Source: Pelobates cultripes (Eukaryota; Chordata; Amphibia; Anura; Pelobatidae). Taken from it: a DNA stretch of 64,000 nucleotides. Position numbers and translations under genes: made by a program. Location: the NCBI GenBank assembly GCA_933207985.1, contig OW240913.1, forward strand, positions 261,242,734 through 261,306,733. The letters run 5' to 3'. Below the pieces are notes generated by a model. It did not search any database. It was not told the origin of the DNA and was given only the letters and a program-made list of their open reading frames with translations. Positions 18,501 to 55,120 of this stretch are shown here, piece by piece. Each line of letters starts with the position of its first letter. Position 1 is the stretch's first letter.

Positions 18501-21500
18501 GGAGACACATGCACATTTGTGGCCTGCTGGAGGTCATTTTGCAGGGCTCTGACAGTGCTCCTCCTGTTCCTCCTTGCACAAAGGCGGAGATAGCAGACCT
18601 GCTGCTGGGTTGTTGCCCTCCTACGGCCTCCTCCACATTTCCTGATGTACTGGCCTGTCTCCTGGTAGCACCTCCATGCTCTGGACACTACGCTGACCGA
18701 CACAGCAAACCTTCTTGCCACAGCTCGCATTGATGTGCCATCCTGGATGAGCTGCACTACCTGAGCCACTTGTGTGGGTTGTAGACTCCGTCTCATGCTA
18801 CCACTAGAGTGAAAGCACTGCCAGCATTCAAAAATGACCAAAACATCAGCCAGGAAGCATAGGAACTGAGAAGTGGTCTGTGGTCACCACCTGCAGAACC
18901 ACTCCTTTATTGGGGGTGTCTTACTAATTGCCTATAGTTTCCACCTGTTGTCTATCCCATTTGCACAACAGCATGTGAAATTGATTGTCACTCAGTGTTG
19001 CTTCCTAAGTGTACAGTTTGATTTCACAGAAGTGTGATTGACTTAAGTGTTCCCTTTATTTTTTTGAGCAGTGTATTTCTGACCCTATAGTGCTAAACTC
19101 ACCATATAGGTGGCTTGCCCCCCCTTATCCTCCCTATAAAAGTTTAAAACTCACCTTATATCCAGCGCCGCAGGGGTGCGCCGACGCTGACCCCTTTGTG
19201 ATATCATCAAAATGGCCGATTTTTAGCCAATCCAATACTTTCCCTGAGTGGCTAAAATCGGCATTGGGGGCAGGGCCAAATGCTGTTTTGGCCAATCAGG
19301 ACCTCCTCATAGAGATACATTTAATCAATTCAGCGTCTCCAGGAGTAGTTATTTCATATAGTAAATGAAATATACCTTTAAGATAGGAGCAGTGTTTCAT
19401 AAATGTATAAAACTGAATAAAACTTAATAAAACGTAACACAATTCAATTAAAATACCAATGTATTGGTGAATAAGAAAGTCCCAATGATCCCAATAATTT
19501 ATGTACTTTAAGATCATAGATGATGGTCTTAAGTTACAGATATTTTCCTCCGTTCTATAAAGAAATAAAATGGAGATCCATATTGCTTACTGTGTTGAAT
19601 ACTTTAATAACATTTCTGAATTAAAATACACTCACAATTTGCAGATCTCTACCAAGTGTTTATGGAAAGGCTTGTTGTTGGGGGTAGTTATCACGGTTCT
19701 ACAGTTTGGCCGGTAGATGAAAACCAGTCACCAGAGTGGGTAGTCCGACGAGCCAGGATCAGGAGAATGGAGAGCAGCGGAGTCAGGAACAAGGCCAGAG
19801 TCAGGAACCAGGAACAAACAGGAAACAGGAAACACAGGAACAAGGAGACTTCTGGGGAACAGGAAACCACGCAAGGGCAAGGAGGTACTGGGATTTGCTG
19901 TTTAAATAGGCTGCACTAATTAGCAGCAGGGCTGGTTACTACTATCAGGTGAGTAACCGTGGCAACATACTGAAGGAGCTGATCATTAATATCAGCTGAA
20001 AACTCAGCCACAGAAAAAGGAAGGGTTACTGTTTAAAACAGCATAGAAACCCTGACAGTACCTGCCCCTCAACGACTCCCCCCATATCTGCTGGTGGGTC
20101 CAGGCTTCATGGGGAAGCGGGCGTGATAGGAATGAAGGAGGGATGGTACATGGACATCAGAGGCTGGAACCCAGGAGCGTTCCTCTGCACCAAGTATTGG
20201 ATCTGTCCTCTGAACACTCGTGAGTCAATGATGCTGTGTATTTCATATTCCTCATGATTGTCAACCAGAACAGGACGTGGACGTGGCACTGAGGTGGTGT
20301 AACGATTACATACCAATGGTTTCAAGAGGGAAACATGGAATACATTCGAGATGCGCATGCTAGCAGGAAGGTCAAGTGCGTAAGCTACAGGGTTAACCCT
20401 TCGAAGTATACGAAATGGCCCAACGTATCGGGGTGCCAGTTTTTGTGAAGGAACACAGAGCCGTAGGTTGCAAGAAGGCAGCCAAACCCTCTCTCAGACC
20501 CTCTCTCCGACCTGATAGGTAGGTGCAGGAAGGTGTCTGCGGTCGGCCTGGAGTTTGTAGTTCTGCATTGCGCGATGCAAAGAGTTCTGAACCTGCACCC
20601 AAGTGGAACAGAGTTCCCTGAGATGTTCCTCCAATGCTGGTATCCCTTGTGGCATGAACGTATCAGGCAACATGGACGGTTCAAACCCATAGTTCGCCAA
20701 GAACGGGGATAGCCGGGAAGAGGCATTAAACCAGTTGTTCTGGTGGATTAGAAATGTAGCAACGAATAAACTGTTTCAAGGCTAGGTTAGCTCGTTCTGC
20801 AGCACCATTGGATTGCGGGTGGTAGGCCGAGGAGAAGGAAAGCTGAATTCCCATCTGTGTGCAAAAAGCTCTCCAAAATCTGGACACAAACTGGCTACCC
20901 CTATCTGAGATTATTACTTTGGGTAACCCATGCAAACGAAAGACCTCCCGAGCAAAAATTTTTGCTAGTTCTTGAGAAGTTGGTAGTTTTTTCAAGGGTA
21001 TGCAATGCAACATCTTGTAAAATCGGTCAACAACCATGAGAACGACTGTATTGCCACTGGAGACCGGAAGATCTATGATAAAGTCCATGAACAAGTGAGT
21101 CCAGGGTCGTTCACCATTAGGTATGGTTTGCAGGAGACCCACTGGAGGGTGTCGTGGGGTTTTATTTTGTGCGTACACAGGACAGGCAGCTACAAAAGCG
21201 GTGACATCCGAACGGAGATTAGGCCACCAAAATTGCTGAGAGACAGACCAGATTAACTGTTTTTTGCCTGGATGTCCAGCTGCTTTCGGGTTGTGATATG
21301 TACTTAATAATTTAGTACGGAGATGAATGGGTACAAAACAACGGCCATTAGGTTTCTCTGGAGGAGCATTAATTTGTTCAGCCAGAATCTCCTCACCTAG
21401 AGGTGAGGTGAGGTTAGTATGGATGGTGGCCAGTATACGGTCCGGAGGAATCACAGGAGTAGGGGTTATCTCCTCTCTAGATGGAGGGGAGAACTGTTGA

Positions 21501-24500
21501 GACAAGGCATCAGCCCGAATGTTTTTAGTACCGGGCAAGTAAGAAACCACATAATTGAATCTTGATAGGAAGAGAGCCCATCTAGCTTGCTGGGGGGAAA
21601 GCCGCTTAGCTTTGGAAAGATATGTAAATTCTTGTGGTCTGTGAGGATGAGAATTGACACTGAATTACCCTCAAGAAGGTGCCTCCATTCTTGGAGAGCT
21701 AAAATTATAGCTAGAAGTTCTCGATCACCAATCTGGTAATTGCATTCCGCCGGGATCAATTTCTTCGAGAAATACCCGCACGGATGCCTGGAGCTCTCTG
21801 GGTTAGGACGTTGAGACAGGAGGGTGCCTACTCCTGTCTCAGACGCATCGACTTCAAGAATGAATGATAAGGCAGGGTTAGGGTGTGCCAGTATAGGAGC
21901 AGCAGCAAAGGCGACTTTGAGAGACTCAAAGGCAGTAATGGCTTCCTGTGACCAATGCTGTGGATCAGCATCTCTCCTGGTCATATCCGTGAGAGGTTTC
22001 ACCAAGGAAGAAAAGTTGCATATGAACTTCCGATAATAATTGGTGAAGCCAAGAAAACGCTGTAGAGAGCGAAGACCCGTAGGTCGAGGCCATTGTAGTA
22101 CAGCAGAAAGTTTCTCTGGATCCATAGAGAATCCAGCATCTGAGATAACATAGCCCAAGAATGTGACCTGTTTGCAGTTGAACTCACATTTCTCCAATTT
22201 ACAGAACAGATTATTTTCTCTGAGTCTTTGTAGAACACGAGAAACATTTGCGTGATGGTTCTCGAGAGATGTGGAATGGATAAGAATATCGTCAAGATAA
22301 ACCACCACACATTGCTGCAGCATATCTCGCAGGACATAATTTATAAATTCCTGGAAAACCGCCGGAGCATTGCAAAGACCAACGGGCATTACTAGGTATT
22401 CGTAATGCCCGCTGCTGGTGTTAAATGCGGTTTTCAATTTGTGGCCCTCTTTTATCCGGACGAGATTATTTGCCCCTCTCAGATCAAGTTTATTGAAGAC
22501 CGTTGCTCCCTTGAGGCGGTTGAATAACTCTGTGATGAGCGGAATGGGGTAGGCATTCTTAATGGTGATGCGATTGAGACCCCTATAGTCGATACACGGT
22601 CTCAACTCACTCTTCTTTTTCACAAAGAAAAAAGCCGGCCCTGGCAGAAGAAGATGACTTCCAAATGAATCCCCATGACAACGCATCGGTAACATACTCC
22701 TCCATAGCTCGATTCTCTGCTACAGACAGCGGGTAAATCCGGCCTCGGGGAGGAATGGCACCAGGTTGGAGTTCGATACCACAGTCATACGGACGGTGTG
22801 GCGGCAGAACGTTGGCTTGACCCTTGTCAAATACATCTTGGAATTCTTGGTACTCAGCGGGTAAGGAAGAGGCAGAAAATGTGCCCAAAACTTTGGCTGG
22901 TTTCCGGAGACAAGAAAATGTGCATTGCTGGGACCAAAATAATATCTCAGATTTGCGCCAATCAATTGTGGGGTTATGCTTCTGTAGCCAAGGGTATCCC
23001 AAAACAACCTGGTAATATGGAGAAGAAATTAGCTGGAATTGGATCGTCTCATGATGTAGAGCCCCTATGGCCAGAGATATGGGCACGGTCTCCTGGGTCA
23101 GGTGGGTTGGCTGTATTGGTCTGCCATTGATGGCTTTGAAAGCTAGTGGAGAGGCCGTAAGGGTATAGAGTGCTCTGATGCAAATGCACAGTCTATAAAC
23201 AAGCCTGCGGCCCCAGAATCAAGCAATGCCTGGGTTTTAGTGGATGAATCAGGCCAGGAGAGGATAATAGGCACCAGTTTGTCCTCATAAATCTCTGGGT
23301 CTGCAGAAAGACCACCCAAGATCTGCCCCTGACAGTATCTTGGGTGAGGGCCCTTTACTGGACGAATCTGGCAAAACTTTAACATGTGACCCTGGTGTCC
23401 GCAGTATAGGTACAGGCCCTCCCTTCTCCTAAAGGCTCTCTCCTTGACAGAGAGGTGTGAGAAGCCTAACTGCCTCGGCTCCACACCCGCAGAGGGCTCA
23501 GGCTCAGGAGGTTTGGGTGGGCAAGAAAAGCTCTGTGCCAAATATGCAGGAGGTCTCCGCAGGTGCTCCCTGGATGAGGATCTCTCTCGGAGTCTGATAT
23601 CAATGAGGGTGACAAAGGATATCAGTTCCTCAAGATCTTTAGGTAATTCTCTGGCTGCAATCTCATTTTTAATAACATTGGAGAGCCCCTGTGCAAAGGC
23701 AGCCACGAGAGTCTCGTTGTCCCAGCCACCCTCTGCTGCCATGGTACGGAATTCACTGGCATACTCGACAATAGTTCTCTTGCCTTGAGCATTAGACATG
23801 AGTTGTTTGGCAGTAGGGGTGGAGCGAGCTGGAATATCAAAAACCCTTTTAAAGGACGCAACAAATTCAGGGTAATTGTAAATAATGGGCCTCTCTGCTT
23901 CCCAGAGAGGTTTTGCCCAAGCTAGGGCTTTTTCAGACAGCAAAGAAATCAAGAACTGGACTTTATCTCTGTCTGTAGGAAATCTCTGGGGAAGCATTTC
24001 AAGGTATCCTCTAACCTGATTTACAAATTCTTTGCACTGAGCTGGGTTGCCCCCAAAATACTGAGGGAGCGGGACAGACCCAGTCATTCCTCTAGCCGCA
24101 ACAGATTTGGAGGCTACAACCGGTGCTAGAACAGGAAGTGAGGCAGAGGCGGCCGCCATCGCAGGCTGGCCGGGTGCTGGATCCAGATGAGCATACTGGT
24201 CCAAATGATGGTTCTGCTGGTCCCACCGAGTAACTAGGTTAGGTATAGGTGTATTGCCTGTACCATCTGTATTCATGGACCTTGCGTAATGTTAGGGACC
24301 AGGAACCAGACAGAGATAGAACTAGATGCAAAAACACCTTTATTAATAAATAACAAATAAAGAAATAACCAAAAGCAAAGTCCAGGAGGCAAGCAGGGGT
24401 CAGTCACCAGAGCGGTTAGTCAGACGAGCCAGGATCAGGAGAACGGAGAGCAGCGGAGTCAGGAACAAGGCCAGAGTCAAGAACCAGGAACAAACAGGAA

Positions 24501-37300: not shown

Positions 37301-40133
37301 CTCCCCCCCGCCGACGTCATCCCCCAGAGCGTGGGCGGACCCTGAACCAGTGCGAGCGACATCGGCGCTAGATACAGGTAAGTCAATGAAGGGGTTTTAA
37401 CCCCTTCAGCAACTTGGGATGGGGGGGGGGGAGGGAGAGGGGACCTGCAGTGCCAGGAAAAAGGCTTGTTTTCCTGGCACTGGAGAGTCCCTTTAATTAT
37501 AGCCCTCACACCTCCCTATACCATCTGATATTTTGTGTTTTTTCCTTCCTCCTTTTTTAACCTCCCTCTATCCCTCCCCTCGCTGACTCAGAGTAAATGC
37601 ATGCTTTCTGAGCTGGTTAAATGGTCCCCTCAAAGTCTTGATTGGACCTCGGCGCAGCTCCTGTGACGTCATACGGAGCATGTCGAGAAGTACCAGGAAT
37701 TTTGCCTGACGCTGGATTAAGGTGAATAAAAACTTGGTTTCAAAATACTTTTTAAGCATTTGGGAGGGGGGACCCTGAACAATAATGCCAATAGGGCATT
37801 ATTCACATAATTTTAAAAAATAGGGTTGAAAAAAAAACCATTAAGTCTCGAACTAGCTTACTATGTAATTATGTAACTAAGAATATTTCAATTTGACTTT
37901 TTATGGAAAGTGAAAAGAATAATAGATCTAAATCTTCAAATAATTATACTTACAAAGTGCCACATATCACATGGTAACAACAAATATTCTGAACTAATGT
38001 AAATAATAAAACCTCTACAACTATAAAAACAAATGTGTAAAAATGGTAACATGCTTAAAAGATAAGATTTAAAAAAATGTAAATATATTAAAAATACCTA
38101 AGATTTACCATGAGGACTAAGATTTACTAAGAGGACTCTCAAAAAGGTTGACTAAGCAAAACATTAATTTAGTGTTGATTAATGATCCAGTCGGCATGTA
38201 TTAATGTAGCGCGTTCTGTATAGAAAGCAATGTCACTAGAATTATTATCTTTTCATGGAGATTGGTCAACTTTTAGAACTCTCAATTACAGATGACCACT
38301 GGGTGCTTAACTGAAGCAGGACCAGCAAATCCAGAAACATTTAGTAATACAAAAGAAGATCTTCAGGCACTGGCAGTATTAAAAAAAATAAGCATTCTTA
38401 TTGGATCAAAATTGTAGCAGAGCATCATTTCAAACTAATACAAGTTACCTCAGCCCTTGAGAGTGAACTCCTTACATTACTGTGGATAAGCTTAGCCGGT
38501 CTAAATGTCTAAACACCATAAACTACATCAGCATAACAGTGCAAAAATAAAATTAAAAATGCCTCATGTGTGTTTTAGTGTATGAGGTACTTTTGTCAGA
38601 GATATATACAGAATGATATTGTGTATAAAGTCGTGGAAACATAATTTCTTTTCTAAGTTTTTGTTCCCAAAAGGGACCTATCAAAGTCCAAGTTGAAATA
38701 TGCATATGATGCACAACACTAATTTTCGTTGTGGGGAGTTTTATCTTGTTTGGTTTCACCACAATCTACATGTATGTATGTTTAGAATAGAGTACCAGCA
38801 ACATTTTCTATACACCTTATGACATATTCTCTGTTCTTTGACATCTTGTGTTTAAGACGATTATTTTCTTTTTAATTAATGGTTGTATTATTCTCAGTTA
38901 CATATATTTAATTTTTTCCCATATCTGCTTAGTTTCTATGTCTATTTTATTCAGTTCACAGCATGTATCATTTGTTCTATTACTGTTATTATAAAAATGT
39001 TTAATTATTGCTTTCTAGATATGGATTATTGTATTCAGTGCAACAACAAGACTCATTGGGCTCCGGTGAACAGCTCTACGTGTTACAAGAAGAAGATTGA
39101 ATATCTACGGTGGAAAGATGGTTTTGCTATTGTTCTTCTCGTTGTTTCTTTTTCAGGAGTAGCTGTAATTGTTGCGATAGCTTTGTTATTTGCAAAAAAT
39201 ATTGATACTCCCGTTGTAAAAGCATCTGGAGGTACCCTTTGCTATGTCATTCTACTATCCATATTTTTCAGCTTTGTAAGTGCCGTCTTCTTTATTGGAA
39301 AACCAGAAGACTTCAAGTGCAAAATACGTCAAGCTATCTTCGGCATTAGTTTCACCATGGTGGTTTCGTGTATCCTGTTAAAGTCCATAAAAATATTGTT
39401 AGCCTTTAGTTTTGAACCAAGGGTGCAATGCTTCCTGAAGTGCCTTTACAAACCCTTCACCTTAGTCTTTGTGTGTACAGGGATCCAGGTCATTATTTGC
39501 ACTCTGTGGCTAGTATTTTGGCCTCCAAGTATTCGAGAAAACTTCTCTCTGCCCAAGACAATTATATTGGAATGTGATGAAGGCTCCACGGTAGCCTTTG
39601 GCATAATGTTAGGCTATATAGCCCTACTGGCATTCATATGTTTCATATTTGCATTTAGAGGTAGGAAATTACCAGAAAATTACAACGAAGGCAAATTTAT
39701 TACTTTTGGAATGCTAATTTACTTCATAGCATGGATAACATTTATTCCTGTTTATGCCACAACCTTTGGGATATATTTACCAGCTGTTGAAATGATTGTA
39801 ATATTAATATCCAGCTATGGAATACTGGCATGTACATTTTTCCCAAAATCTTATATTATCTTATGCAAGCAAGATACGAATACAAAATCGGCCTTCCTTA
39901 AAATGATATATAAATATTCCTCCAAGAGTGCTAGCAGTCTGGCAGTTAGTAGCCAAGTCTCTTCCAATTGTACACTTACTCACTCTCCTACTTCTGTTTC
40001 TGATATATGTGGAAGGTCTTCATCAGTTAGTTGTGTAAATAACAGCTTCTCTTTTCAAGAGAGACTTGTAGCTGCTAATATGCTTTCTGCTGAGAAAAGG
40101 GGTCTTGTGCGAAAAAGGTTATCAAGCATTTGA
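5173..40133 (+). CDS. GPRC6A: GPRC6A, class C G protein-coupled receptor (six spliced exons)
   Basis: Joining 5173-5366, 9028-9331, 12636-13463, 25394-25609, 32357-32480 and 39019-40133 gives 2781 bases in one open frame: 926 residues, the length of human GPRC6A. Order: signal peptide (about 1-19), Venus-flytrap domain (about 20-510), nine-cysteine domain, seven helices and a cytosolic tail. Ser149, which binds the amino-acid ligand in mammalian receptors, is present at the same number. Position 172 is Ser where human has Thr. Cys131, the intersubunit disulfide cysteine, is kept. The third intracellular loop carries RKLP, the form linked to surface expression; most humans carry KGKY. Family knowledge: plasma-membrane homodimer, activated by Arg, Lys and ornithine, modulated by divalent cations, Gq-coupled. 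Calcium-sensing, vomeronasal and taste receptors are less likely, since residues match GPRC6A throughout. Confidence 0.95.
5501..6255. mobile_element. Old DNA-transposon remnant (GATTTAAATCA repeat)
   Basis: The left end has CACTGCGGATTTGATTTAAA followed by repeated ATTTAAATCA-type motifs, and the right end has a loosely inverted ATATCACTG. Between them is AT-rich DNA with scattered TTTAAAT. This resembles the dispersed GATTTAAATCA repeats of vertebrates, but boundaries and superfamily are uncertain. Confidence 0.35.
6514..6772. repeat. Inverted-repeat element with ~84-bp arms
   Basis: The left arm (about 6514-6598) and right arm (about 6687-6772) are near-perfect inverted copies, including AGCGCACTCGCTTATTCACT and AGTGAATAAGCGAGTGCGCT. 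About 88 bp separate them and AT microsatellites lie on both sides. It looks like a foldback MITE. Confidence 0.75.
6842..6896. repeat. (AT)n(GT)n microsatellite
   Basis: An uninterrupted run of AT dinucleotides passes into GT dinucleotides. A separate AT/ATAC run is at 6464-6510. Confidence 0.95.
6994..7046. repeat. 53-bp AT-rich palindrome
   Basis: TATACTTCGATCATATATAG and its inverse CTATATATGATCGAAGTATA meet across a few bases. This would make a cruciform or hairpin with roughly 24-bp arms. Confidence 0.85.
7289..8808 (+). mobile_element. Tc1/mariner element (copy A)
   Basis: Inverted termini begin CAGTGCCTTG and contain AGTATTCACCCCC on the left and its inverse on the right. A TA precedes the left end, as expected for Tc1. 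The TA after the right end is mutated to GA. At about 1.5 kb the element is near full length, with a decayed transposase inside. Confidence 0.85.
7687..8597 (+). pseudogene. Tc1 transposase, frameshifted
   Basis: The start encodes [20 protein letters not shown], the N-terminal helix-turn-helix region of Tc1 transposases. The frame then shifts, and homology continues in other frames: [14 protein letters not shown] linker, CSDETKIE (first catalytic Asp), [10 protein letters not shown] (second Asp) and PDLNPIE (third acidic residue). A stop near 8595 follows the usual C-terminus. At least three frame changes separate the segments, so no active DDE transposase can be made. Its position between the inverted termini fits a once-autonomous copy. 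Confidence 0.85.
9028..9331 (+). CDS. GPRC6A: GPRC6A coding exon 2
   Basis: The acceptor TTTTAG ends at 9027, and the exon runs to a CAG|GTGGGT donor at 9331. It completes codon 65 and encodes residues 66-166 of the flytrap domain, including [20 protein letters not shown] and the ligand-binding Ser149 within GASYSEVS. Potential N-glycosylation sites include NNSS, NST and NYT. Cys131 lies in FQCNYT. Confidence 0.93.
9415..9800 (-). mobile_element. Tc1/mariner 3' fragment (copy B)
   Basis: A terminus CAGTGGTGCTCAAAAGTTTG follows a TA at 9413-9414. Reading inwards on the minus strand, 9392-9766 encodes [20 protein letters not shown], which resembles a Tc1 transposase C-terminus (WAAIPP). The rest of the transposase and the other terminus are missing. 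Confidence 0.65.
9820..9960. repeat. Dispersed repeat fragment, family unknown
   Basis: The stretch with ATTTTACCAGGATGGATACA and TCAAGTATGTCCTGGG resembles a dispersed amphibian repeat. It lies between the Tc1 fragment and the exon 2 duplicate. Assignment is tentative. Confidence 0.3.
9973..10100 (+). repeat. Partial duplicate of GPRC6A exon 2 boundary
   Basis: About 125 bp repeats 9273-9398 with few changes. It comprises the last ~56 bp of exon 2, the CAG|GTGGGT donor and the first ~70 bp of intron 2. The coding part differs from exon 2 at one clear position (CTTATTCC becomes CTTTTTCC, Ile to Phe). The start of the exon and its acceptor are absent. TTTACTTCAG at 9970-9979 could act as a weak acceptor for a 50-bp pseudo-exon, which would shift the frame. 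Confidence 0.85.
10101..10620. other. Intron 2 DNA without recognised feature
   Basis: AT-rich sequence. A 118-codon open frame (10303-10659) lacks any family signature, ends in an AT microsatellite, and is judged non-coding. Confidence 0.5.
10625..10658. repeat. (TA)n microsatellite
   Basis: A pure TA dinucleotide run. Confidence 0.95.
10805..10995. repeat. GC-rich hairpin inside hAT element A
   Basis: GGGAGCTCTTCCTCTGAG and its inverse CTCAGAGGAAGAGCTCCC form the arms. They extend outwards through GGCGGCTGGC and GCCAGCCGCC. The centre holds TGACGTCA at 10896-10903. Confidence 0.8.
11084..11338. repeat. GTGTCTGACTGT-type microsatellite
   Basis: A run of GT dinucleotides interrupted by TCTGACTG units. 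Open frames on both strands here are pure repeat translations. Confidence 0.95.
11539..11602. repeat. (TA)n/(GT)n microsatellite
   Basis: TA dinucleotides with an internal GTGTGTGTGT block. Confidence 0.9.
11640..12164. other. Intron 2 DNA without recognised feature
   Basis: AT-rich sequence. No open frame, transposon end or RNA motif is recognisable. Confidence 0.5.
12165..12339. repeat. Palindromic MITE, CACTAAAGTGAGAA family (copy 2)
   Basis: It starts near GGTTATTCAATAAAGTAAGA and ends with CTCATTTTAGTAAATAACCC, its inverse. The middle contains GACCTAAATTTTGAAATTCA, also seen in the copies at 14645 and 40160. Confidence 0.7.
12497..12570. repeat. (TA)n microsatellite just upstream of exon 3
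   Basis: A TA run of about 37 units ending roughly 65 bp before the exon 3 acceptor. Length may be polymorphic or mis-assembled. Confidence 0.95.
12636..13463 (+). CDS. GPRC6A: GPRC6A coding exon 3
   Basis: The acceptor CTTCCTAG ends at 12635 and the donor GAG|GTAAAC follows 13463. The exon encodes 276 residues (167-442) of the flytrap domain. [20 protein letters not shown] opens it; Ser172 is the position of human Thr172. Conserved blocks include [35 protein letters not shown] and [11 protein letters not shown]. The WIASD-type block lies near the hinge and ligand pocket in class C receptors. Both junctions are phase 0. Confidence 0.95.
13464..13770. other. Start of intron 3, no recognised feature
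   Basis: AT-rich unique-looking sequence following the exon 3 donor. Nothing further is recognisable. Confidence 0.5.
13771..14093. mobile_element. CGAACGGTTCG-type MITE (copy 1)
   Basis: The right end reads GTTCGGGACATCAC, and the left end contains GATGTCCTCAACTGTTCG, roughly its inverse. Bases 13936-14040 match 48990-49085 in inverse orientation, including CTGATTGGCTGGAATGTG. A hairpin of CCTCCTGGACAGC and GCTGTCCAGGAGG lies at 13880-13936. It is non-coding. Confidence 0.6.
14394..14640. mobile_element. T2-like MITE remnant
   Basis: TTAAAGAGATGG opens the segment, followed by GGAATCCCCTGGCACTG. The 48540-48680 repeat has a comparable CCTGGCAGTG block. No matching right TTAA end is evident. 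Confidence 0.4.
14645..14810. repeat. Palindromic MITE, CACTAAAGTGAGAA family (copy 3)
   Basis: It contains AATTTCAAAGTGAATGCCAA and the inverse block AATTTGAAATTCACTTTGAA. Ends read ACTCACTATAATTTAAAGTG and CAATTCTCAGTTAGTGAAT. It belongs with the copies at 3173, 12165 and 40160. Confidence 0.65.
14811..16204. other. Intron 3 DNA without recognised feature
   Basis: Several open frames of 60-103 codons occur on both strands (for example 14913-15167 and 15104-15415). None shows a domain, splice context or repeat identity that I recognise. An ACAC-rich patch lies at 15200-15310. Confidence 0.45.
16205..16904. mobile_element. hAT-type non-autonomous element B, right end lost
   Basis: The left terminus CAGTGGCGTACACACAATCC closely matches element C at 28085, followed by the shared CATGGGGCCCC block. 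A CA/ACAT microsatellite (16309-16552), a CTTACCTTTT motif near 16578 and a GC-rich hairpin follow. No TACGCCACTG right terminus is found, so the element is truncated near 16900 and no target duplication can be shown. Confidence 0.65.
16309..16552. repeat. CA/CAGA/CATA microsatellite
   Basis: Imperfect ACACAC, ACAGAC and ATACAT units. Cysteine-rich open frames on the minus strand here are repeat translations. Confidence 0.95.
16905..17488. other. Intron 3 DNA without recognised feature
   Basis: AT-rich sequence. An 80-codon minus frame at 17052-17294 has no recognisable signature. Confidence 0.5.
17527..19073 (-). mobile_element. Tc1/mariner element (copy C), complete ends
   Basis: Termini CACTGCTCAAAAAAATAAAG and its inverse are intact, and TA duplications flank both ends (17525-17526 and 19074-19075). 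The length is 1547 bp. It interrupts the T2-like MITE in its hairpin loop. This TIR family is shared by fish, lampreys and amphibians and is known for horizontal spread. Confidence 0.9.
17789..18796 (-). pseudogene. Tc1 transposase, frameshifted
   Basis: The minus strand from 18796 encodes [20 protein letters not shown], a paired-like helix-turn-helix start, and continues to about 18455. A frame change follows. The next open stretch carries FTDESRF (first Asp), MQDNARPH (second Asp) and [12 protein letters not shown] (third acidic residue), the DDE catalytic set. Another frame change precedes [11 protein letters not shown] and a stop at 17789. The catalytic residues survive, but at least two frameshifts prevent a single protein. 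Decay is slight, suggesting a fairly young copy. Confidence 0.88.
19382..19685. other. Intron 3 DNA without recognised feature
   Basis: AT-rich sequence between the T2-like MITE and the gypsy element. Nothing recognisable. Confidence 0.45.
19722..20057 (-). repeat. 3' LTR of the gypsy element, incomplete
   Basis: It matches the right LTR from CAGTCACCAGAG (19722) to CCCTGACA (20057). Relative to the right LTR it has an extra AGGAAACAGGAAAC-type unit and lacks the outer ~110 bp. A GGGGGGAGTCGTTGAGGGG tract on the minus strand just inside it is a good polypurine tract. Confidence 0.8.
20107..20358 (-). pseudogene. gypsy pol C-terminus: chromodomain
   Basis: The frame encodes [15 protein letters not shown], the usual end of the integrase region, then [20 protein letters not shown], a chromodomain core similar to the heterochromatin-binding fold. 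Chromodomains of this kind direct integration toward marked chromatin. The segment is separated from the rest of integrase by a frame change. The end of the domain departs from the usual WKGY-type sequence (NAPGF). Confidence 0.75.
20393..21550 (-). pseudogene. gypsy integrase, frameshifted
   Basis: The first residues ([13 protein letters not shown]) are the RNase H-integrase linker. The zinc-binding region keeps HNPKAAGH, but the final CPVC motif reads CPVY, losing one ligand. The catalytic core has MDFIIDLP (Asp), ISDRGSQF (Asp) and NGAAERAN (Glu). After 20726 the frame changes, and homology continues as [11 protein letters not shown] and [20 protein letters not shown] down to 20494, then in another frame through the GPF-type region near 20400. 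The protein would not be made intact. Confidence 0.85.
21466..22695 (-). pseudogene. gypsy reverse transcriptase and RNase H
   Basis: The 409-codon frame covers most of the [38 protein letters not shown] (usually KLDLR.AY), FCNAP-like [13 protein letters not shown] and the catalytic YLDDILI. RNase H follows with [17 protein letters not shown] and [13 protein letters not shown]-dependent DNA synthesis is the expected role. The N-terminal residues of this frame are out of frame with the preceding protease segment, and the C-terminus runs out of frame before integrase. Confidence 0.88.
22607..23086 (-). pseudogene. gypsy protease-RT connecting segment
   Basis: The frame encodes [17 protein letters not shown], a conserved stretch after the aspartic protease, then [20 protein letters not shown] and [20 protein letters not shown], which lead into RT. 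It is in a different frame from both the gag-protease frame (ending 23143) and the RT frame (starting about 22695), so two frameshifts bracket it. Confidence 0.85.
23143..24276 (-). CDS. gypsy gag with start of protease
   Basis: A 377-codon frame starting 14 bases inside the right LTR. The central part ([20 protein letters not shown] through [12 protein letters not shown]) is a retrotransposon gag capsid region. A zinc knuckle follows near residue 295, but its first cysteine is replaced ([14 protein letters not shown]), so it is a degraded CCHC. The C-terminal part carries ALLDSGAAG, an aspartic protease active-site motif. Gag would form the virus-like particle. The frame is intact up to a stop after the protease motif, beyond which pol is frameshifted. 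Confidence 0.85.
   Translation of the reverse strand: MNTDGTGNTPIPNLVTRWDQQNHHLDQYAHLDPAPGQPAMAAASASLPVLAPVVASKSVAARGMTGSVPLPQYFGGNPAQCKEFVNQVRGYLEMLPQRFPTDRDKVQFLISLLSEKALAWAKPLWEAERPIIYNYPEFVASFKRVFDIPARSTPTAKQLMSNAQGKRTIVEYASEFRTMAAEGGWDNETLVAAFAQGLSNVIKNEIAARELPKDLEELISFVTLIDIRLRERSSSREHLRRPPAYLAQSFSCPPKPPEPEPSAGVEPRQLGFSHLSVKERAFRRREGLYLYCGHQGHMLKFCQIRPVKGPHPRYCQGQILGGLSADPEIYEDKLVPIILSWPDSSTKTQALLDSGAAGLFIDCAFASEHSIPLRPLH
24290..24725 (-). repeat. 5' LTR of the gypsy element
   Basis: On the minus strand it would run from TATCAGGG (24725; intact TGTCAGGG in the other LTR) to CCCTAACA (24290), TG...CA termini of 436 bp. An AATAAA on the minus strand near 24340 could serve polyadenylation. 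No clear tRNA primer site beginning TGG directly follows. Confidence 0.75.
24726..24998 (+). repeat. LTR fragment, same anatomy as the 34526 solo LTR
   Basis: It begins with TATAAAAG, then ATAATAAAATAG, and ends with ACGGAGGTACCCAGTTGGGG and a GGTCCGCCA terminus. The solo LTR ends CGGAGGTACCCAGTCAGGGT and the remnant at 30061-30108 ends similarly. It abuts the gypsy LTR, so the gypsy element may have inserted in or beside it. Confidence 0.55.
24999..25393. other. End of intron 3, AT-rich with (TA)n at 25287-25318
   Basis: AT-rich sequence ending in a TTTTTTTCAG acceptor at 25393. A TA microsatellite is the only feature seen. Confidence 0.6.
25394..25609 (+). CDS. GPRC6A: GPRC6A coding exon 4
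   Basis: The acceptor TTTTTTTCAG ends at 25393 and the donor ATG|GTAATG follows 25609. It encodes 72 residues (443-514) closing the flytrap domain, including [20 protein letters not shown], a highly conserved block in class C receptors. Both junctions are phase 0, as in exon 3. Confidence 0.94.
25614..26455 (-). pseudogene. CR1 LINE, 5'-truncated 3' end
   Basis: The minus frame 26456-25827 encodes 209 residues of the reverse transcriptase thumb and C-terminal region: [49 protein letters not shown] and [16 protein letters not shown], all typical of CR1. The catalytic part of RT and the endonuclease are missing. The 3' end contains CATAGAATGTGACGGCAGAT and a short CATAGA repeat tail, as CR1 elements use. 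It sits five bases after exon 4's donor. Confidence 0.88.
26456..26689. other. Intron 4 DNA without recognised feature
   Basis: AT-rich sequence. Nothing recognisable. Confidence 0.5.
26690..27440. repeat. G-rich minisatellite (GGGGATCTGTGCAGGGGAGG)
   Basis: Imperfect tandem units of roughly 33-40 bp built on GGATCTGTGCAGGGGAGGCA and GGGGGCTGTCAGGGAGGC. Many GGGG blocks on this strand could form G-quadruplexes. Proline-rich and glycine-rich open frames here are repeat translations. Confidence 0.92.
27441..27745. repeat. GT-rich minisatellite (TGTGTTAGTGTATGCAG)
   Basis: Tandem units of about 30 and 34 bp with the core TTGTGTTAGTGTATGCAGTG. Confidence 0.92.
27835..28017. repeat. ~183-bp GC-rich palindrome
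   Basis: Arms include GGCTCCCTGTTACCG with its inverse CGGTAACAGGGAGC, and AATAACTCTCGCGAGACC with GGTCTTGCGAGAGTTATT. A short loop lies at about 27920-27928. The arrangement (microsatellite, TTACCT motif, hairpin) matches the hAT-type elements, so it may be the right half of another truncated copy. Confidence 0.8.
28235..28580. mobile_element. T2-like MITE left part inside hAT element C
   Basis: TTAAAGGACCACTACAGACA and the inner hairpin around CAATGAAGTGGTCTGGGTGC match the MITE at 37037. Further internal hairpins (AGCCGTTTCAGAGAAACGGCT; CATTGAGTAATGCTTTCC) follow. The right terminus is missing, replaced by AAAGGTAAATG and a CA microsatellite. Confidence 0.6.
28598..29138. repeat. CA/ACACTAACA microsatellite
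   Basis: About 540 bp of imperfect ACACACACTAACA units. Open frames are repeat translations. Confidence 0.95.
29253..29412. repeat. Palindrome with central TGACGTCA
   Basis: Arms GCGCGCGAGGGAGCACTCA and TGAGTGCTCCCTCGCGCGC are perfect inverses. The centre is a second perfect palindrome, GCCGGAAGATGACGTCAT continuing to CTTCCGGC, with the CRE-type octamer at 29329-29336. Confidence 0.88.
30109..30940. other. Intron 4 DNA, one poorly defined repeat
   Basis: Mostly AT-rich. The stretch near 30520-30610 (TTGTTGTGCCAGTAAGTACA) looks like a dispersed-repeat end but cannot be assigned. Confidence 0.4.
30941..31660. other. GC-richer segment, probable LINE 5' region or repeat
   Basis: Contains GTGAATGGCAGCCATGTTGT and CGGCGCGCGGGAATCC with several G-rich blocks, unlike the flanking intron. 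No long open frame is seen. It recalls the 5' leader of L1/Tx1-like elements (compare 58312-58406), but the match is weak. Confidence 0.3.
31661..32356. other. End of intron 4, no recognised feature
   Basis: AT-rich sequence ending in the ATACAG acceptor at 32356. Tandem GCCGCCCCCTCTTT units occur at 31733. Confidence 0.5.
32357..32480 (+). CDS. GPRC6A: GPRC6A coding exon 5
   Basis: The acceptor ATACAG ends at 32356 and the donor CCCAG|GTAAGG follows 32480. It encodes [20 protein letters not shown] and onwards, holding six of the nine cysteines of the cysteine-rich domain (NCD3G), including CCYEC and CPENHYTN. This domain links the flytrap to the membrane helices and passes on activation. 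It ends in phase 1, matching exon 6. Confidence 0.94.
32960..34525 (-). pseudogene. L1-like LINE, 3' part of ORF2, decayed
   Basis: Read on the minus strand, 33310-33380 gives CWRCGTNEG followed by CKHIWWSC, the cysteine-histidine C-terminal motif of L1-type ORF2. The frame 34428-34198 includes [20 protein letters not shown] and [11 protein letters not shown], from just after the RT active site. Stops and frame changes are frequent. The element continues beyond the solo LTR at 35683-36740 with the RT core. Confidence 0.8.
34526..35677 (+). repeat. Solo LTR with 5-bp TSD
   Basis: It begins TGTGACACAGTGCCC and ends GGTCTGTTACA, TG...CA, 1152 bp. CTATA duplications flank it at 34521-34525 and 35678-35682. 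A TATA-like GTATATAAGAG and AATAAAGCC occur near 35300. Tandem TTCGACAATTCGAACGCAG units lie near 34835. No internal coding region remains, so it is a recombined solo LTR. The family is related to the remnants at 24726 and 28032. Confidence 0.85.
35697..35776. mobile_element. 80-bp TTAA palindromic MITE
   Basis: TTAACCCCTTAAGGAC and TCATTAAGGGGTTAA form inverted termini at TTAA, the same termini as the 6301 element. It lies 15 bp after the solo LTR's target duplication. Confidence 0.7.
35777..36742 (-). pseudogene. L1-like LINE, RT core of ORF2, decayed
   Basis: Minus-strand translation of 35790-35970 gives [20 protein letters not shown] and later [16 protein letters not shown]. This is the RT palm with the conserved QGCPLSP-like motif. 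The catalytic YADD reads YAND, so the active site is lost. Upstream RT sequence continues towards 36700 with breaks. It belongs to the same element as 32960-34525, split by the solo LTR and the small MITE. Confidence 0.82.
36743..36925. mobile_element. T2-like MITE, left part
   Basis: TTAAAGAGTTACTCCAACCG opens it. The inner hairpin is CCATGACCACGTCAAA with TTTGAAGTGGTCATG. No right TTAA end is seen before the next copy. Confidence 0.6.
37037..37496. mobile_element. T2-like TTAA MITE, complete
   Basis: Starts TTAAAGGGACACTCTAGGC and ends CACTGGAGAGTCCCTTTAA, with TTAA at both edges. Inner hairpins include CCCAGACCACTTCTGG with GAGTGGTCTGAGTGCC, and paired GCGCGTGCGCAGCATTGCCG and GCGCATGCGCATTAGG. 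An AGGTAAGTCAATGAAGGGG motif lies at 37378. Confidence 0.8.
37497..39018. other. End of intron 5, no recognised feature
   Basis: AT-rich sequence ending in the TTTCTAG acceptor at 39018. The reading frame of exon 6 is open upstream to 38883, but this lies in the intron. Confidence 0.55.
39019..40133 (+). CDS. GPRC6A: GPRC6A coding exon 6 (7TM and tail)
   Basis: The acceptor CTTTCTAG ends at 39018 and the TGA stop is at 40131-40133. It completes the cysteine-rich domain ([13 protein letters not shown], then TCYKKK) and encodes seven hydrophobic helices. Conserved blocks are [69 protein letters not shown] and [20 protein letters not shown]. Loop 3 is [14 protein letters not shown]. Compared with human, the first intracellular loop region is one residue shorter (SGGTLCYV against SGGLRVCYV). 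The tail is serine-rich and ends RKRLSSI, like the human receptor. Confidence 0.96.
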
Positions 40134-47406: not shown

Positions 47407-47421
47407 TATTATAGTCATTGA
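47407..47421. repeat. 15-bp target-site duplication, left copy
   Basis: TATTATAGTCATTGA, identical to 48159-48173, directly borders the tandem array. A duplication this long is typical of LINE-type target-primed insertion. Confidence 0.85.
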
Positions 47422-47557
47422 TTTCTGAGCAGGGACCCACCGAAGGGCAGGCTATTTCAGCTGCTGTCCGTTCTCAGAATACTCTTGCGACCCGTTTTTT
47501 GCTCTCCATAAGTTTAAAGGTTAATCCAGACGTGGACCCCTTGCTCACGGTGCCTAG

Positions 47558-47629
47558 AGAGATATTAGTTATGCCTCACTGTTGATGCCTAACACGGCTG
47601 AAACGATTGTCTGGGGTTGCTGTATCTCT
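47558..47629 (+). ncRNA. Type I hammerhead ribozyme motif, monomer 1 (core lesion)
   Basis: Order: AGAGATA (stem I outer), loop, GCCTCA (stem I inner), CTGTTGA (47579-47585), stem II GCC/GGC, GAAAC (47600-47604), GATT loop, GTC (47609-47611, cleavage after C), TGGGGT (stem I inner partner), loop, TATCTCT (stem I outer partner). The inner stem has six pairs including two wobbles; the outer stem has seven. The core CUGAUGA has A6 changed to U, which should abolish or greatly reduce cleavage. Stem II starts with a U-U pair instead of the usual G-C. Confidence 0.7.
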
Positions 47630-47884
47630 TGTGCAGAGAGAACTTGCTGGCATTTCGGATCTGGACTGCCCGTATGGGTGGGACCAGTCTGATATGCTTC
47701 AGATATGTTCTCTCTGTAATGACACAAGATAAGCTAAAACCAGCTTGAGTTCTGAGCGGGGACCCACCGAAGGGCAGGCTATTTCAGCTGCTGTCCGTTC
47801 TCAGAATACTCTTGCTACCCGTTTTTTGCTCTCCATAAGTTTAAAGGATAATCCAGACGTGGACCCCTTGCTCACGGTGCCTAG

Positions 47885-47956
47885 AGAGATATTAGTTATG
47901 CCTCACTGATGATGCCTAACAAGGCTGAAACAATCTTCTGGGGTTGCTGTATCTCT
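47885..47956 (+). ncRNA. Type I hammerhead ribozyme motif, monomer 2 (cleavage-site lesion)
   Basis: The same layout 327 bp downstream. The core CTGATGA (47906-47912) is complete, stem II is GCCT/AGGC around AACA, and GAAAC is at 47927-47931. The cleavage triplet reads TTC (47936-47938) instead of GTC, removing the G that pairs in the two-base-pair stem III. Stem I pairs (AGAGATA with TATCTCT; GCCTCA with TGGGGT) are intact. Confidence 0.7.
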
Positions 47957-48158
47957 CGTGCAGAGAGAACTTGCTGGTATTTCGGATCTGGACTGCCCGT
48001 TTGGGTGGGACCAGTCTGATATGTTTCAGATATGTTCTCTCTGTAATGGCACAAGATGAGCTAAAACCAGCTTGAGTTCTGAGCGTGGACCCCCTGAAGG
48101 GCAGGCTATTTCAGCTGCTGTCCGTTCTCAGAATACTCTTGCGACCCGTTTTTTGCTC

Positions 48159-48173
48159 TATTATAGTCATTGA
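48159..48173. repeat. 15-bp target-site duplication, right copy
   Basis: TATTATAGTCATTGA, identical to the left copy. Confidence 0.85.
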
Positions 48174-49845: not shown

Positions 49846-52800
49846 AATCACAATGGATATGGATTGATACCTGACATATGACATATTGACACAGAGCAGA
49901 ATAGGGACTGTTCCCCCTACATAGGGTCACTTGGCAGGAATGGATTGACACCTGTCCTCAGAGACCATGATACACACTGACACAGAGCAGAATAGAGACT
50001 GTTCTCCTACATAGGGTCACTTGGCAGATATGGATTGACACCTGTCTTCAGAGATCATGATACACACTGACACAGAGCAGAATAGAGACTGGTCCTCCTA
50101 CATAGGGTCACTTGGCAGATATGGATTGACACCTGTCCTCAGAGACCATGATACACACTGACACACAGCAGAATAGAGACTGTTCTCCTACATAGGGTCA
50201 CTTGGCAGATATGGATTGACACCTGTCCTCAGAGCCCCTGATACACACTGACACAGAGCAGAATAGAGACTGTTCCTCCTACATAGGGTTACTTGGCAGA
50301 TATGGATTGACACCTGTCCTCAGAGACCATGATACACACTGACACAGAGCAGAATAGAGACTGTTCTCCTACATAGGGTCACTTGGCAGATATGGATTGA
50401 CACCTGTCCTCAGAGACCATGATAGACACTGACACAGAGCAGAATAGAGACTGTTCTCCTACATAGGGTCACTTGGCAGATATGGATTGACACCTTTCCT
50501 CAGGGACCATGATACACACTGACACAGAGCAGAATAGAGACTGTTCATCCTACATAAGGTCACTTGGCAGATATGGATTGACACCTGTCCTCAGAGATCC
50601 ATGATACACACTGACACAGAGCAGAATAGAGACTGTTCCCCCTACATAGGGTCACTTGGCAGATATGGATTGACACCTGTCCTCAGATCCCCTGATACAC
50701 ACTGACACAGAGCAGAATAGGGACTGTTCCTCCTACATAGGGTCACTTGGCAGATATGGATTGACACCTGTCCTCAGAGACCATGATACACACTGACACA
50801 GAGCAGAATAGAGACTGTTCTCCTACATAGGGTCACTTGGCAGATATGGATTGACACCTGTCCTCAGAGACCATGATACACACTGACACAGAGCAGAATA
50901 GGGACTGTTCCCCCTACATAGGGTCACTTGGCAGATATGGATTGACACCTGTCCTCAGAGACCATGATACACACTGACACAGAGCAGAATAGAGACTGTT
51001 TCCCCTACATAGGGTCACTTGGCAGGTATGGATTGACACCTTTCCTCAGGGACCATGATACACACTGACACAGAGCAGAATAGAGACTGTTCTCCTACAT
51101 AGGGTCACTTGGCAGATATGGATTGACACCTGTCCTCAGAGCCCCTGATACACACTGACACAGAGCAGAATAGAGACTGTTCCTCCTACATAGGTCACTT
51201 GGCAGATATGGATTCACACCTGTCCTCAGAGACCATGATACACACTGACACAGAGCAGAATAGAGACTGTTCTCCCTACATAGGGTCACTTGGCAGATAT
51301 GGATTGACACCTGTCCTCAGAGATCATGATACACACTGATACAGAGCAGAATAGAGACTGTTCCCCTACATAGGGTCACTTGGCAGATATGGATTGACAC
51401 CTGTCCTCAGAGACCATGATACACACTGACACAGAGCAGAATAGAGACTGTTCCCCCTACATAGGGTCACTTGGCAGATATGGATTGACACCTGTCCTCA
51501 GAGCCCCTGATACACACTGACACAGAGCAGAATAGAGACTGTTCCTCCTACATAGGGTCCCTTGGCAGATATGGATTGACACCTGTCCTCAGAGACCATG
51601 ATACACACTGACACAGAGCAGAATAGAGACTGTTCCTCCTACATAGGGTCCCTTGGCAGATATGGATTGACACCTGTCCTCAGAGACCATGATACACACT
51701 GACACAGAGCAGAATAGAGACTGTTCTCCTGCATAGGGTCACTTGGCAGATATGGATTGACACCTGTCCTCAGAGACCATGATACACACTGACACAGAGC
51801 AGAATAGAGACTGTTCTCCTACATAGGGTCACTTGGCAGATATGGATTGACACCTTTCCTCAGGGACCATGATACACACTGACACAGAGCAGAATAGAGA
51901 CTGTTCCCCCTACATAGGTTCACTTGGCAGGTATGGATTGACACCTGTCCTCAGAGACGATGATACACACTGACACAGAGCAGAATAGAGACTGTTCTCC
52001 TACACAGGGTCACTTGGCAGATATGGATTGACACCTGTCCTCAGAGATCATGATACACACTGACACAGAGCAGAATAGAGACTGTTCCTCCTACATAGGG
52101 TCACTTGGCAGATATGGATTGACACCTGTCCTCAGAGCCCCTGATACACACTGACACAGAGCAGAATAGAGACTGTTCCTCTTACATAGGATCACTTGGC
52201 AGATATGGATTGACACCTGTCCTCAGAGACCATGATACACACTGACACAGAGCAGAATAGAGACTGTTTCCCCTACATAGGGTCACTTGGCAGATATGGA
52301 TTGACACCTGTCCTCAGGGACCATGATACACACTGACACAGAGCAGAATAGAGACTGTTCTCCTACATAGGGTTACTTGGCAGATATGGATTGACACCTG
52401 TCCTCAGAGACCATGATACACACTGACACAGAGCAGAATAGAGACTGTTTCCCCTACATAGGGTCACTTGGCAGATATGGATTGACACCTGGCCTCAGAG
52501 CCCCTGATACACACTGACACAGAGCAGGATAGAGACTGTTCCTCCTACATAGGGTCACTTGGCAGATATGGATTGACACCTGTCCTCAGAGACCATGATA
52601 CACACTGACACAGAGCAAAATACAGACTCTTCCTCCTACATAGGGTCACTTGGCAGATATGGATTCACACCTATCCTAATGATCCCTGATACACAATGAC
52701 ACAGATCAGAATAGGGGCTGTTCCCCCTACATAGGGTCACTTGGCAGATATGGATTGACACCTGTCCTCAGAGATCATGATAAACACTGATACAGAGCAG

Positions 52801-53908
52801 AATAGAGACTGTTTCCCCTACATAGGGTCACTTGGCAGATATGGATTGACACCTGTCCTCAGGGACCATGATACACACTGACACAGAGCAGAATAGAGAC
52901 TGTTTCCCCTACATAGGGTCACTTGGCAGATATGGATTGACACCTGTCCTCAGGGACCATGACACACACTGACACAGAGCAGAAAAGAGACTGTTCCCCC
53001 TACATAGGGTCACTTGGCAGATATGGATTGACACCTGTCCTCAGAGCCCCTGATACACACTGACACAGAGCAGAATAGAGACTGTTCCTCCTACATAGGG
53101 TCACTTGGCAGATATGGATTGACACCTGTCCTCAGAGACCATGACACACACTGACACAGAGCAGAATAGGGACTGTTCCCCCTACATAGGGTCACTTGGC
53201 AGATATGGATTGACACCTGTCCTCAGAGCCCCTGATACACACTGACACAGAGCAGAATAGAGACTGTTCCCCCTACATAGGGTCACTTGGCAGATATGGA
53301 TTGACACCTTTCCTCAGGATCCCTGATACACACTGACACAGAGCAGAATAGAGACTGTTCCCCCTACATAGGGTCACTTGGCAGATATGGATTGACACCT
53401 GTCCTCAGAGATCGTGATACACACTGACACAGAGCAGAATAGAGACTGTTTCCCCTACATAGGGTCACTTGGCAGTTATGGATTAACACCTGTCCTCAGA
53501 GACCATGATACACACTGACACAGAGCAGAATAGTGACTGTTCCTCCTACATAGGGTCACTTGGCAGATATGGATTGACACCTGTCCTCAGAGACCATGAT
53601 ACACACTGACACAGAGTAGAATAGAGACAGTTCTCCTACGTAGGGTCACTTGGCAGATATGGATTGACACCTGTCCTCAGAGACCATGATACACACTGAC
53701 ACAGAGCAGAATAGAGACTGTTCCCCCTACATAGGGTCACTTGGCATGTATGGATTGACACCTATCCTCAGGATCCCTGATACACACTGACACAGAGCAG
53801 AATAGGGAATGTTCCCCCTACATAGGGTCACTTGGCAGATATGGATTGACACCTGTCCTCAGGATCCCTGATACACACTGACACAGAGCAGAATAGGGAA
53901 TGTTCCCC
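49846..53908. repeat. ~90-bp satellite array, about 45 copies
   Basis: Unit: CATAGGGTCACTTGGCAGAT, then ATGGATTGACACCTGTCCTC, AGAGACCATGATACACACTG, and ACACAGAGCAGAATAGAGAC. Copies differ by a few bases; GAGCCCCTGATAC and CAGGGACCATG variants are interspersed. It runs into the assembly gap. Confidence 0.95.
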
Positions 53909-54008: not shown

Positions 54009-55120
54009 AAGTGGTACAGTATACGCTCTTGAGCCTGACACACAGACGCTTGCAGACAACTTACTGCTATTCAATCTATAACAGTGAAAAAAGTTTTTTG
54101 GTTTTTAAATGCACGCTATTGTGACACCAGTGAGTGAGTGGTGGCACTGGGCACAGTATCCACTGTAAGCCTGACACACCCGCTTTGAGACAACTAACTG
54201 CTATTCAATCTGTAACAGTGAAAAAAGTTTTTTGGTTTTAAATGCAAGCTATTGTGACACCAGTGAGTGAATGGTGGCACTGGGCACAGTATCCACTGTG
54301 AGCCTGACACACACCCTTTGAGACAACTGACTGCTATTCAATCTATAACAGTGAAAAAAGTTTTTTGTTTGTAAATGCAAGCTATTGTGACACCAGTGAG
54401 TGAGTGGTGGCACTGGGCACAGTATCCACTGTGAGCCTGACACACCCGCTTTGAGACAACTAACTGCTATTCAATCTATAACAGTGAAAAAAGTTTTTTT
54501 GGTTTTTAAATGCACGCTATTGTGACACCAGTGAGTGAGGTGGTAGCACTGGGCACAGTATCTACTGTGAGCCTGACACAGACGCTGGCAGACAACTAAC
54601 TGCTATTCAATCTATAACAGTGAAAAAAGTTTTTTGTTTTTTAAATGCAAGCTATTGTGACACCAGTGAGTGAGTGGTGGCACTGGGCACAGTATCCACT
54701 GTGAGCCTGACACACCCGCTTTGCAGACAACTAACTGCTATTCAATCTATAACAGTGAAAAAAGTTTTTTGTTTTTAAATGCAAGCTATTGTGACACCAG
54801 TGAGTGAGTGGTGGCACTGGGCACAGTATCCACTGTGAGCCTGACACACCCGCTTTGAGACAACTAACTGCTATTCAATCTATAACAGTGAAAAAAGTTT
54901 TTGGTTTTTAAATGCAAGCTATTGTGACACCAGTGAGTGAGTGGTGGCACTGGGCACAGTATCCACTGTGAGCCTGACACAGAAGCTGGCAGACAACTAA
55001 CTGCTATTCAATCTATTACAGTGAAAAAAAAATTTAAATGCAAGCTATTGTGACACCAGTGAGTGAGTGGTGGCACTGGGCAAGTGGGCACAGTATACGT
55101 TGAGAGCCTGACACAAATAA
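54009..55120. repeat. ~133-bp satellite array, about eight copies
   Basis: Unit: GTGGCACTGGGCACAGTATC, then CACTGTGAGCCTGACACAC, GACAACTAACTGCTATTCAA, AACAGTGAAAAAAGTTTTTT, and GCAAGCTATTGTGACACCAG. Starts at about 54141, 54274 and 54407 give the period. Confidence 0.93.

Follow-up and report, generated by a model that had tools for sequence, protein, structure and literature searches.

The element analysed here resembles, by published description (PMC7229834), two repeats of other amphibians. Newt satellite 2 is a repeat of ~330 bp with a hammerhead, and the axolotl retrozyme Rtz_353, with its ribozyme HHR_Amex2, is a tandem repeat of ~350 bp that carries a type I hammerhead with a two-pair helix III closed by a tetraloop and a U-U at the base of helix II. 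The Pelobates repeat shares all of these features with Rtz_353 and differs from it in its unit of 327 bp and its anuran host, whereas the newt-like axolotl hammerhead HHR_Amex1 has one pair in helix III, versus two here. The non-LTR retrozymes of coral and mussel, compared by description from the same source, have other sizes, and cleavage and circles were shown for them. The portion of PMC7229834 drawn on here contains no description of 3' ends or head-to-head arms for Rtz_353. The LTR retrozymes of plants are also hammerhead repeats proposed to spread via circular RNA (PMC4918200), but they have a type III hammerhead, LTRs and a 4-bp target-site duplication (TSD).

According to a 2020 review, animal retrozymes lack a conserved motif that would indicate the mobilising element (PMC7761336), and a review of 2024 still names either LINEs or Penelope-like elements (PLEs) as the mover (PMC11722881). 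A purified PLE protein of Anolis starts reverse transcription (RT) internally, at a site that lacks homology with the target; at AT-rich DNA, it cuts both strands and extends each of them (PMC11167929). Poseidon of Anolis is comparable to the element described here in its internal RT start, its AT-rich target and its possession of a hammerhead (PMC11167929). With the Penelope elements of rotifers, the present element has head-to-head arms and TSDs in common; in many rotifer PLE copies, head-to-head pLTRs form the boundaries, and some of these lie inside a TSD (PMC3846280). The copies analysed here have a fixed site of initiation and also occur as two-armed insertions, features that can discriminate a LINE from a PLE, and their variants, hardly common to both arms, bear on how head-to-head PLE insertions form.

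The window, which is the whole 64-kb stretch of Pelobates DNA that was analysed, contains a tandem array detected by TRF at 47418-48159 (period 327, 2.3 copies, 95% matches). A direct-repeat search identified 300-nt direct copies starting at 47418 and 47745 (96%) and an 88-nt piece present in three copies, the third at 48072. Both analyses confirmed the claim of an earlier note on this DNA that the array consists of two full 327-bp monomers and a partial third. The coordinates given in that note, 47422-48158, were found to be bounded exactly by a perfect 15-bp TSD, which it had not mentioned. Places within the monomer are given below as phases, where phase = (position - 47749) mod 327 + 1. The features of the locus are as follows.

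47407..47421, + strand: left TSD copy, 15 bp, TATTATAGTCATTGA, 15/15 identical to 48159-48173
47422..48158, + strand: 737-bp retrozyme insertion of 2.25 copies (two turns of 327 bp and 83 nt of a third)
47422..47748, + strand: monomer 1, phase 1-327
47557..47629, + strand: putative hammerhead of monomer 1, from the letters of stem I, core, stem II, GAAAC and stem III and the pairing scheme
47579-47585, + strand: core of monomer 1, CUGUUGA, damaged (core A to U)
47600-47603, + strand: GAAA of monomer 1; GUC at 47609-47611; predicted cleavage 47611|47612
47749..48075, + strand: monomer 2, phase 1-327
47884..47956, + strand: putative hammerhead of monomer 2, from letters and pairing scheme
47906-47912, + strand: core of monomer 2, CUGAUGA, intact
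47927-47930, + strand: GAAA of monomer 2; UUC at 47936-47938; predicted cleavage 47938|47939
48076..48158, + strand: partial third turn, phase 1-83, ending in CCCGTTTTTTGCTC
48159..48173, + strand: right TSD copy, 15 bp, a perfect match to the left copy

By the features that could be tested here, the element classifies as a new member of the animal (metazoan) non-LTR retrozymes. Its 327-bp tandem unit lies within the range of 150-450 bp for retrozymes, which occur as dimers up to multimers, its hammerhead is of type I, and no stop-to-stop frame of at least 130 aa overlaps 47422-48158; PLEs, in contrast, encode an RT and a GIY-YIG endonuclease. Its TSDs exceed 4 bp, being 15 bp in the window with a median of the same length in the family, and the same genome contains PLEs, a label that depends on the reading of their frames. 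The GC content of the column-majority monomer is 50.5%, slightly above the stated retrozyme bound of <50%. The proposal of an amphibian retrozyme-like element was thus supported by the features tested, with GC content as a borderline case. Our main reading, to which we assign a probability of about 0.7, is that this non-autonomous retrozyme is inserted by rolling-circle RT from a fixed internal site, with one or both target strands primed, by Penelope-like machinery.

A type I hammerhead can be fitted to phases 136-208, with CUGAUGA at 158-164, GAAA at 179-182 and GUC at 188-190. Its stem I comprises outer, middle and inner helices, its stem II consists of a U-U followed by GCC/GGC, and its stem III consists of two pairs with the tetraloop GAUC. 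The outer and inner helices of stem I had been recognised in the earlier note, but the middle one (CAGC/GCUG in the family, U/G-wobbled in the window) had been overlooked. The stem and core letters named there for each full monomer are present, except that each monomer of the window carries one lesion, CUGUUGA in monomer 1 and UUC in place of GUC in monomer 2, and neither hammerhead is complete. The UUC is still an NUH triplet, but the second stem III pair is broken.

The family as a whole retains the motif. Among 30 loci (L001-L030) that were chosen through similarity to the whole monomer and not through the ribozyme, the core and a cleavable NUH triplet were both intact in 39 of 42 spanning turns. 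Pairs of stems I and II other than the U-U were retained in at least 40 of 42-43 turns in these loci, and the second stem III pair in 40/44 turns; most other changes were G-U wobbles. The copies differ from the column majority by a median of 3.3%, and because they are young, there is little true covariation in the hammerhead helices. The U-U at the base of stem II, about which a worry had been raised, is fixed in the sample (42/43 turns, and 80/81 in loci chosen by the core), and the same U-U occurs in axolotl HHR_Amex2 together with a two-pair helix III and tetraloop (PMC7229834); it is therefore no defect. The family majority sequence retains CUGAUGA, GAAAC and GUC, in agreement with the expectation that a consensus would keep these elements. 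The core was not clearly more conserved than the remaining monomer, since random sets equalled it 1,223 times in 20,000. For the window hammerhead, structure prediction (z -2.63) kept stems I and II, but the minimum-energy form paired the core region differently; the whole monomer gave a z of -3.66. A long hairpin adjoins the hammerhead in the predicted fold at phase 205-295 (47953-48043 in the window), and this may possibly be a protein-binding arm.

The covariance search proposed in the earlier note gave a divided result. The window had no Rfam match at gathering level, and its copy matched HH9 below threshold (14.5 bits, E 2.7). In 20 loci (63 kb), no hammerhead was found by Rfam at E up to 0.5, and the matches in these loci were miRNA-, snoRNA- and sRNA-like, all under gathering. 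When one intact copy (L061) was scanned alone, Hammerhead_1 was the top family, with 18.1 bits and E 0.04 against a gathering score of 34. SNORD25 matches over the hammerhead were sub-threshold and were rejected.

The proposed genome search for copies with both CUGAUGA and GUC intact was positive. The whole core, including the cleavage triplet, had 1,347 matches genome-wide and the reversed pattern had none. At least 2,403 matches to the 3' end (≤2 mismatches) were found genome-wide, versus one for the reversed control, and copies are spread over many chromosomes. In order to examine the insertions, 96 loci were scanned, 30 of them from a similarity search in which 40 of 2,420 candidates were scored and 66 (30 + 20 + 16) from the core-pattern listing, the latter all on one contig (C1). 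After the removal of six duplicates, 11 insertions running off the locus, one with an N-containing flank and one shorter than 60 bp, 82 distinct insertions remained; short copies are under-sampled among them because the chosen loci hold the ribozyme core or most of a monomer. The largest of the 82 measures 1,429 bp with its arms summed. The array at L023, which reaches the edge of its locus at ≥2,890 bp, was left out.

The 3' outer ends of these insertions are fixed. Eighty-six of 97 fall in phase 75-97, a zone of 23 nt located ~220 nt past the predicted cleavage site. The 5' ends are scattered, with 2/67 in this zone, and 54 of the 67 single-arm insertions are longer than one monomer. In the 82 insertions, 5' ends appear to cluster near phases 12-31, 61-74, 112-128 and 307-327, which could possibly reflect pause sites or sampling bias. 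When at least 7 nt of each copy was required to lie outside the element, with a score of 11 or more, TSDs were detected in 34/82 insertions versus 0/482 mismatched flank pairs, with a median length of 15 bp; the other 48 insertions had no TSD at score 11. A looser count that allowed copies inside the element gave 37/82 versus 3/482, and the stricter one drops L046, L047 and L049. Among 45 TSD-bearing 3' junctions, 40 could be placed well, of which 37 lie at phase 81-89 and three at 73-79. The 3' end of the window insertion, at phase 83, is within the 81-89 zone.

These data bear on the view that the repeat is an ordinary satellite spread by DNA recombination, with the hammerhead likeness due to chance or a relic. 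Its tandem layout and the lack of an Rfam match at gathering level would fit such a satellite, but the dispersal over many chromosomes, the TSDs, the fixed 3' end and the 1,347 intact cores against none reversed do not, and we regard this view as barely credible; the TSDs and the 3' ends already refute it as a complete explanation.

The target sites resemble those expected from the main reading of Penelope-like insertion at AT-rich DNA. The AT content was 0.74 in the TSDs and 0.58 in the loci. Microhomology between target and template averaged 1.95 nt, versus 0.57 nt with shuffled TSDs (maximum 1.00). A regular A-tail was not found, as a run of five A residues occurred within 12 nt after 4/97 3' ends and an A4 end at 1/45 TSD junctions (L068). 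Insertion heads were rare at phase 184-197 (2/79 in an initial set of 67 insertions). Since the predicted cleavage phase, 190|191, lies away from the insertion ends, these ends have another origin than the ribozyme cut.

Fifteen of the 82 insertions are head-to-head pairs, in which an inverted arm is followed by a direct arm, and none is tail-to-tail. The start zone recurs in these pairs, with 27 of their 30 outer ends in phase 75-97. The three others are at 43 in L034, whose alignment seems to end prematurely, at 103 in L007, and at 287 in L009, where the piece measures 27 bp and could be noise. One TSD encloses the whole pair in 11/15 cases. At the junctions between the arms, 14/15 pairs range from a gap of 6 nt to an overlap of 4 nt; ten have overlaps of 1-4 nt, one has an overlap of 16, one has 0, and three have gaps of 1, 2 and 6 nt. 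With their fixed internal 3' start and, in the pairs, head-to-head arms enclosed by a single TSD, the insertions carry the marks of PLE integration.

The same retrozyme might instead be moved by a LINE of the L1, L2, CR1 or RTE type through ordinary target-primed RT, with the inverted arms arising by twin priming. The TSDs of L1 are usually ~15 bp, as here, a frame in the window weakly matches the L1 ORF1 type under the Pfam cut-off, and the literature leaves the choice between LINE and PLE undecided. However, under twin priming the inverted piece can begin at any internal position, whereas the outer ends of the pairs concentrate at one start zone. The scarcity of A-tails and the few variants shared by head-to-head arms (below) also argue against a LINE, and we consider movement by one improbable.

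The main reading, in which a template is read round repeatedly and each nick can be extended on its own, also concerns the variants carried by the copies. Repeated reading of one circle should pass its private variants to successive turns of an arm. Adjacent turns shared 46/439 rare (<5%) variants in 54 insertions, 26 of which had at least one shared variant; in permutations the shared fraction had a mean of 0.005 and a maximum of 0.0185. Head-to-head arms shared 1/150 rare (<5%) variants in 12 insertions, one of which had a shared variant. The difference between turns and arms at the 5% cut gave a Fisher p of 1.5e-5 per variant, a value that is too small because variants within one insertion are not independent, and a p of 0.02 when counted per insertion (26/54 versus 1/12). 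Arms of different pairs shared 17/1,701 variants at the 5% cut, which is approximately the level of arms of one pair. At the 15% cut, turns shared 87/587 and arms 14/214 (p 0.0016, per variant and optimistic), and arms of the same pair shared more than arms of different pairs (95/2,505); some pairs may therefore share a template or a subfamily. The template is shared within an arm and largely unshared between arms in the sampled copies, and most head-to-head arms were copied from their own template.

Another possibility is that head-to-head pairs form by self-priming or fold-back of one molecule instead of by priming on both nicks. Head-to-head is the commonest orientation in rotifer PLEs, where it has been interpreted as self-priming (PMC3846280), and the excess sharing of same-pair arms at the 15% cut points the same way. 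Fold-back copies one molecule, which predicts that private variants are common to the arms just as they are to turns; the sparse sharing at the 5% cut, far below that of turns and close to that of unrelated arms, counts against it, and fold-back appears highly improbable as the origin of these pairs.

The template could also be a linear multimeric transcript, with the hammerhead as a passenger or acting only on expression. Ribozyme-dead RNA of one Anolis PLE was inserted in vitro as well (PMC11167929), the insertion heads lie away from the cleavage site, and a source array could already share variants among its units, so that sharing between turns alone cannot separate a circle from a linear multimer. 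On the other hand, the mostly intact cores would be expected to cut a linear multimer, and animal retrozymes with such a fold give abundant circles (PMC7229834). We give a linear template a minor but real chance.

In support of a Penelope-like enzyme as part of the main reading, 24 GIY-YIG matches were found in the genome among 150 of 2,774 candidates scored. Seven Penelope-type loci were compared, of which six are mutually related and one is of another kind. With these few PLE copies, no similarity between the retrozyme and the seven loci was detected (best match 16/18 nt, E 1.5), and therefore no partner PLE is named. The 16/18-nt match, near the end of an ORF in L083 and on phase 71-88 of the retrozyme, in the start zone, was treated as chance. 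A loose hammerhead expression matched 5/7 of the Penelope-type loci, of which only L081 and L084 have a convincing candidate. A conserved hammerhead-like motif is present in an aligned region of ~650 nt at 1451 in L081 and, in reverse-complement view, at 1372 in L084; judged from its letters (CTGAGGA..GAAAC), it looks like a minimal PLE hammerhead. Rfam found no hammerhead in L081 and L082, although L081 has this motif.

We infer that the hammerhead is active in cleavage, that the template is circular and that the enzyme is Penelope-like, and the proposed mechanism would proceed as follows. Type I hammerheads, probably acting as pairs, would divide transcripts of tandem copies into units of 327 nt that would close into RNA circles, as expected from the family. 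A Penelope-like reverse transcriptase-endonuclease would nick both strands of an AT-rich target with a stagger of ~15 nt. The cDNA would begin at one fixed internal site of the circle, at phase ~81-89 and ~220 nt past the cleavage site, where a few nucleotides of primer-template pairing would help it start, and RT would then go round the circle, often for more than one turn, and stop at varied places. Extension of a single nick would yield a tandem array, fixed at its 3' end and ragged at its 5' end, as in the window. If both nicks were extended on separate templates, the two cDNAs would join head-to-head, mostly via short overlaps. The Pelobates insertions would resemble the scheme described for Anolis (PMC11167929) in two-strand priming, in the fixed internal start and in the AT-rich target, and differ from it by a few nucleotides of target-template homology.

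For animal retrozymes as a group, we see an even chance that they are parasites of Penelope-like machinery and integrate by two-ended target-primed RT, in which each nicked strand would prime rolling-circle cDNA on a separate ribozyme-made circle, both from one internal start site, before the two cDNAs join head-to-head. If true, the two-ended reading would name the mover of animal retrozymes and would give an in vivo record of PLE chemistry. The integration anatomy would be the new part, as the element itself is of a known kind; no published report of this insertion anatomy was found in the titles and abstract openings of the open-licence papers that literature searches listed.

The window contains several other features. 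Frames with Pfam matches to ANF_receptor and 7tm_3 lie at 12636-13472 (+) and 38880-40133 (+), a combination as in family C receptors, for example a vomeronasal V2R or a relative of the calcium-sensing receptor, to judge from the predicted domains. Pfam identified a Ty3-type retrotransposon, whose gag, RT/RNase H and integrase lie in separate frames, at 20726-24291 (-), and a DDE_3 transposase frame, probably of the Tc1/mariner type, at 17826-18473 (-). In addition, TRF detected a 91-bp satellite at 49887-53908 (~44 copies, 94% matches) and a 133-bp tandem array, with an alternative unit of 404 bp, at 54030-55082.
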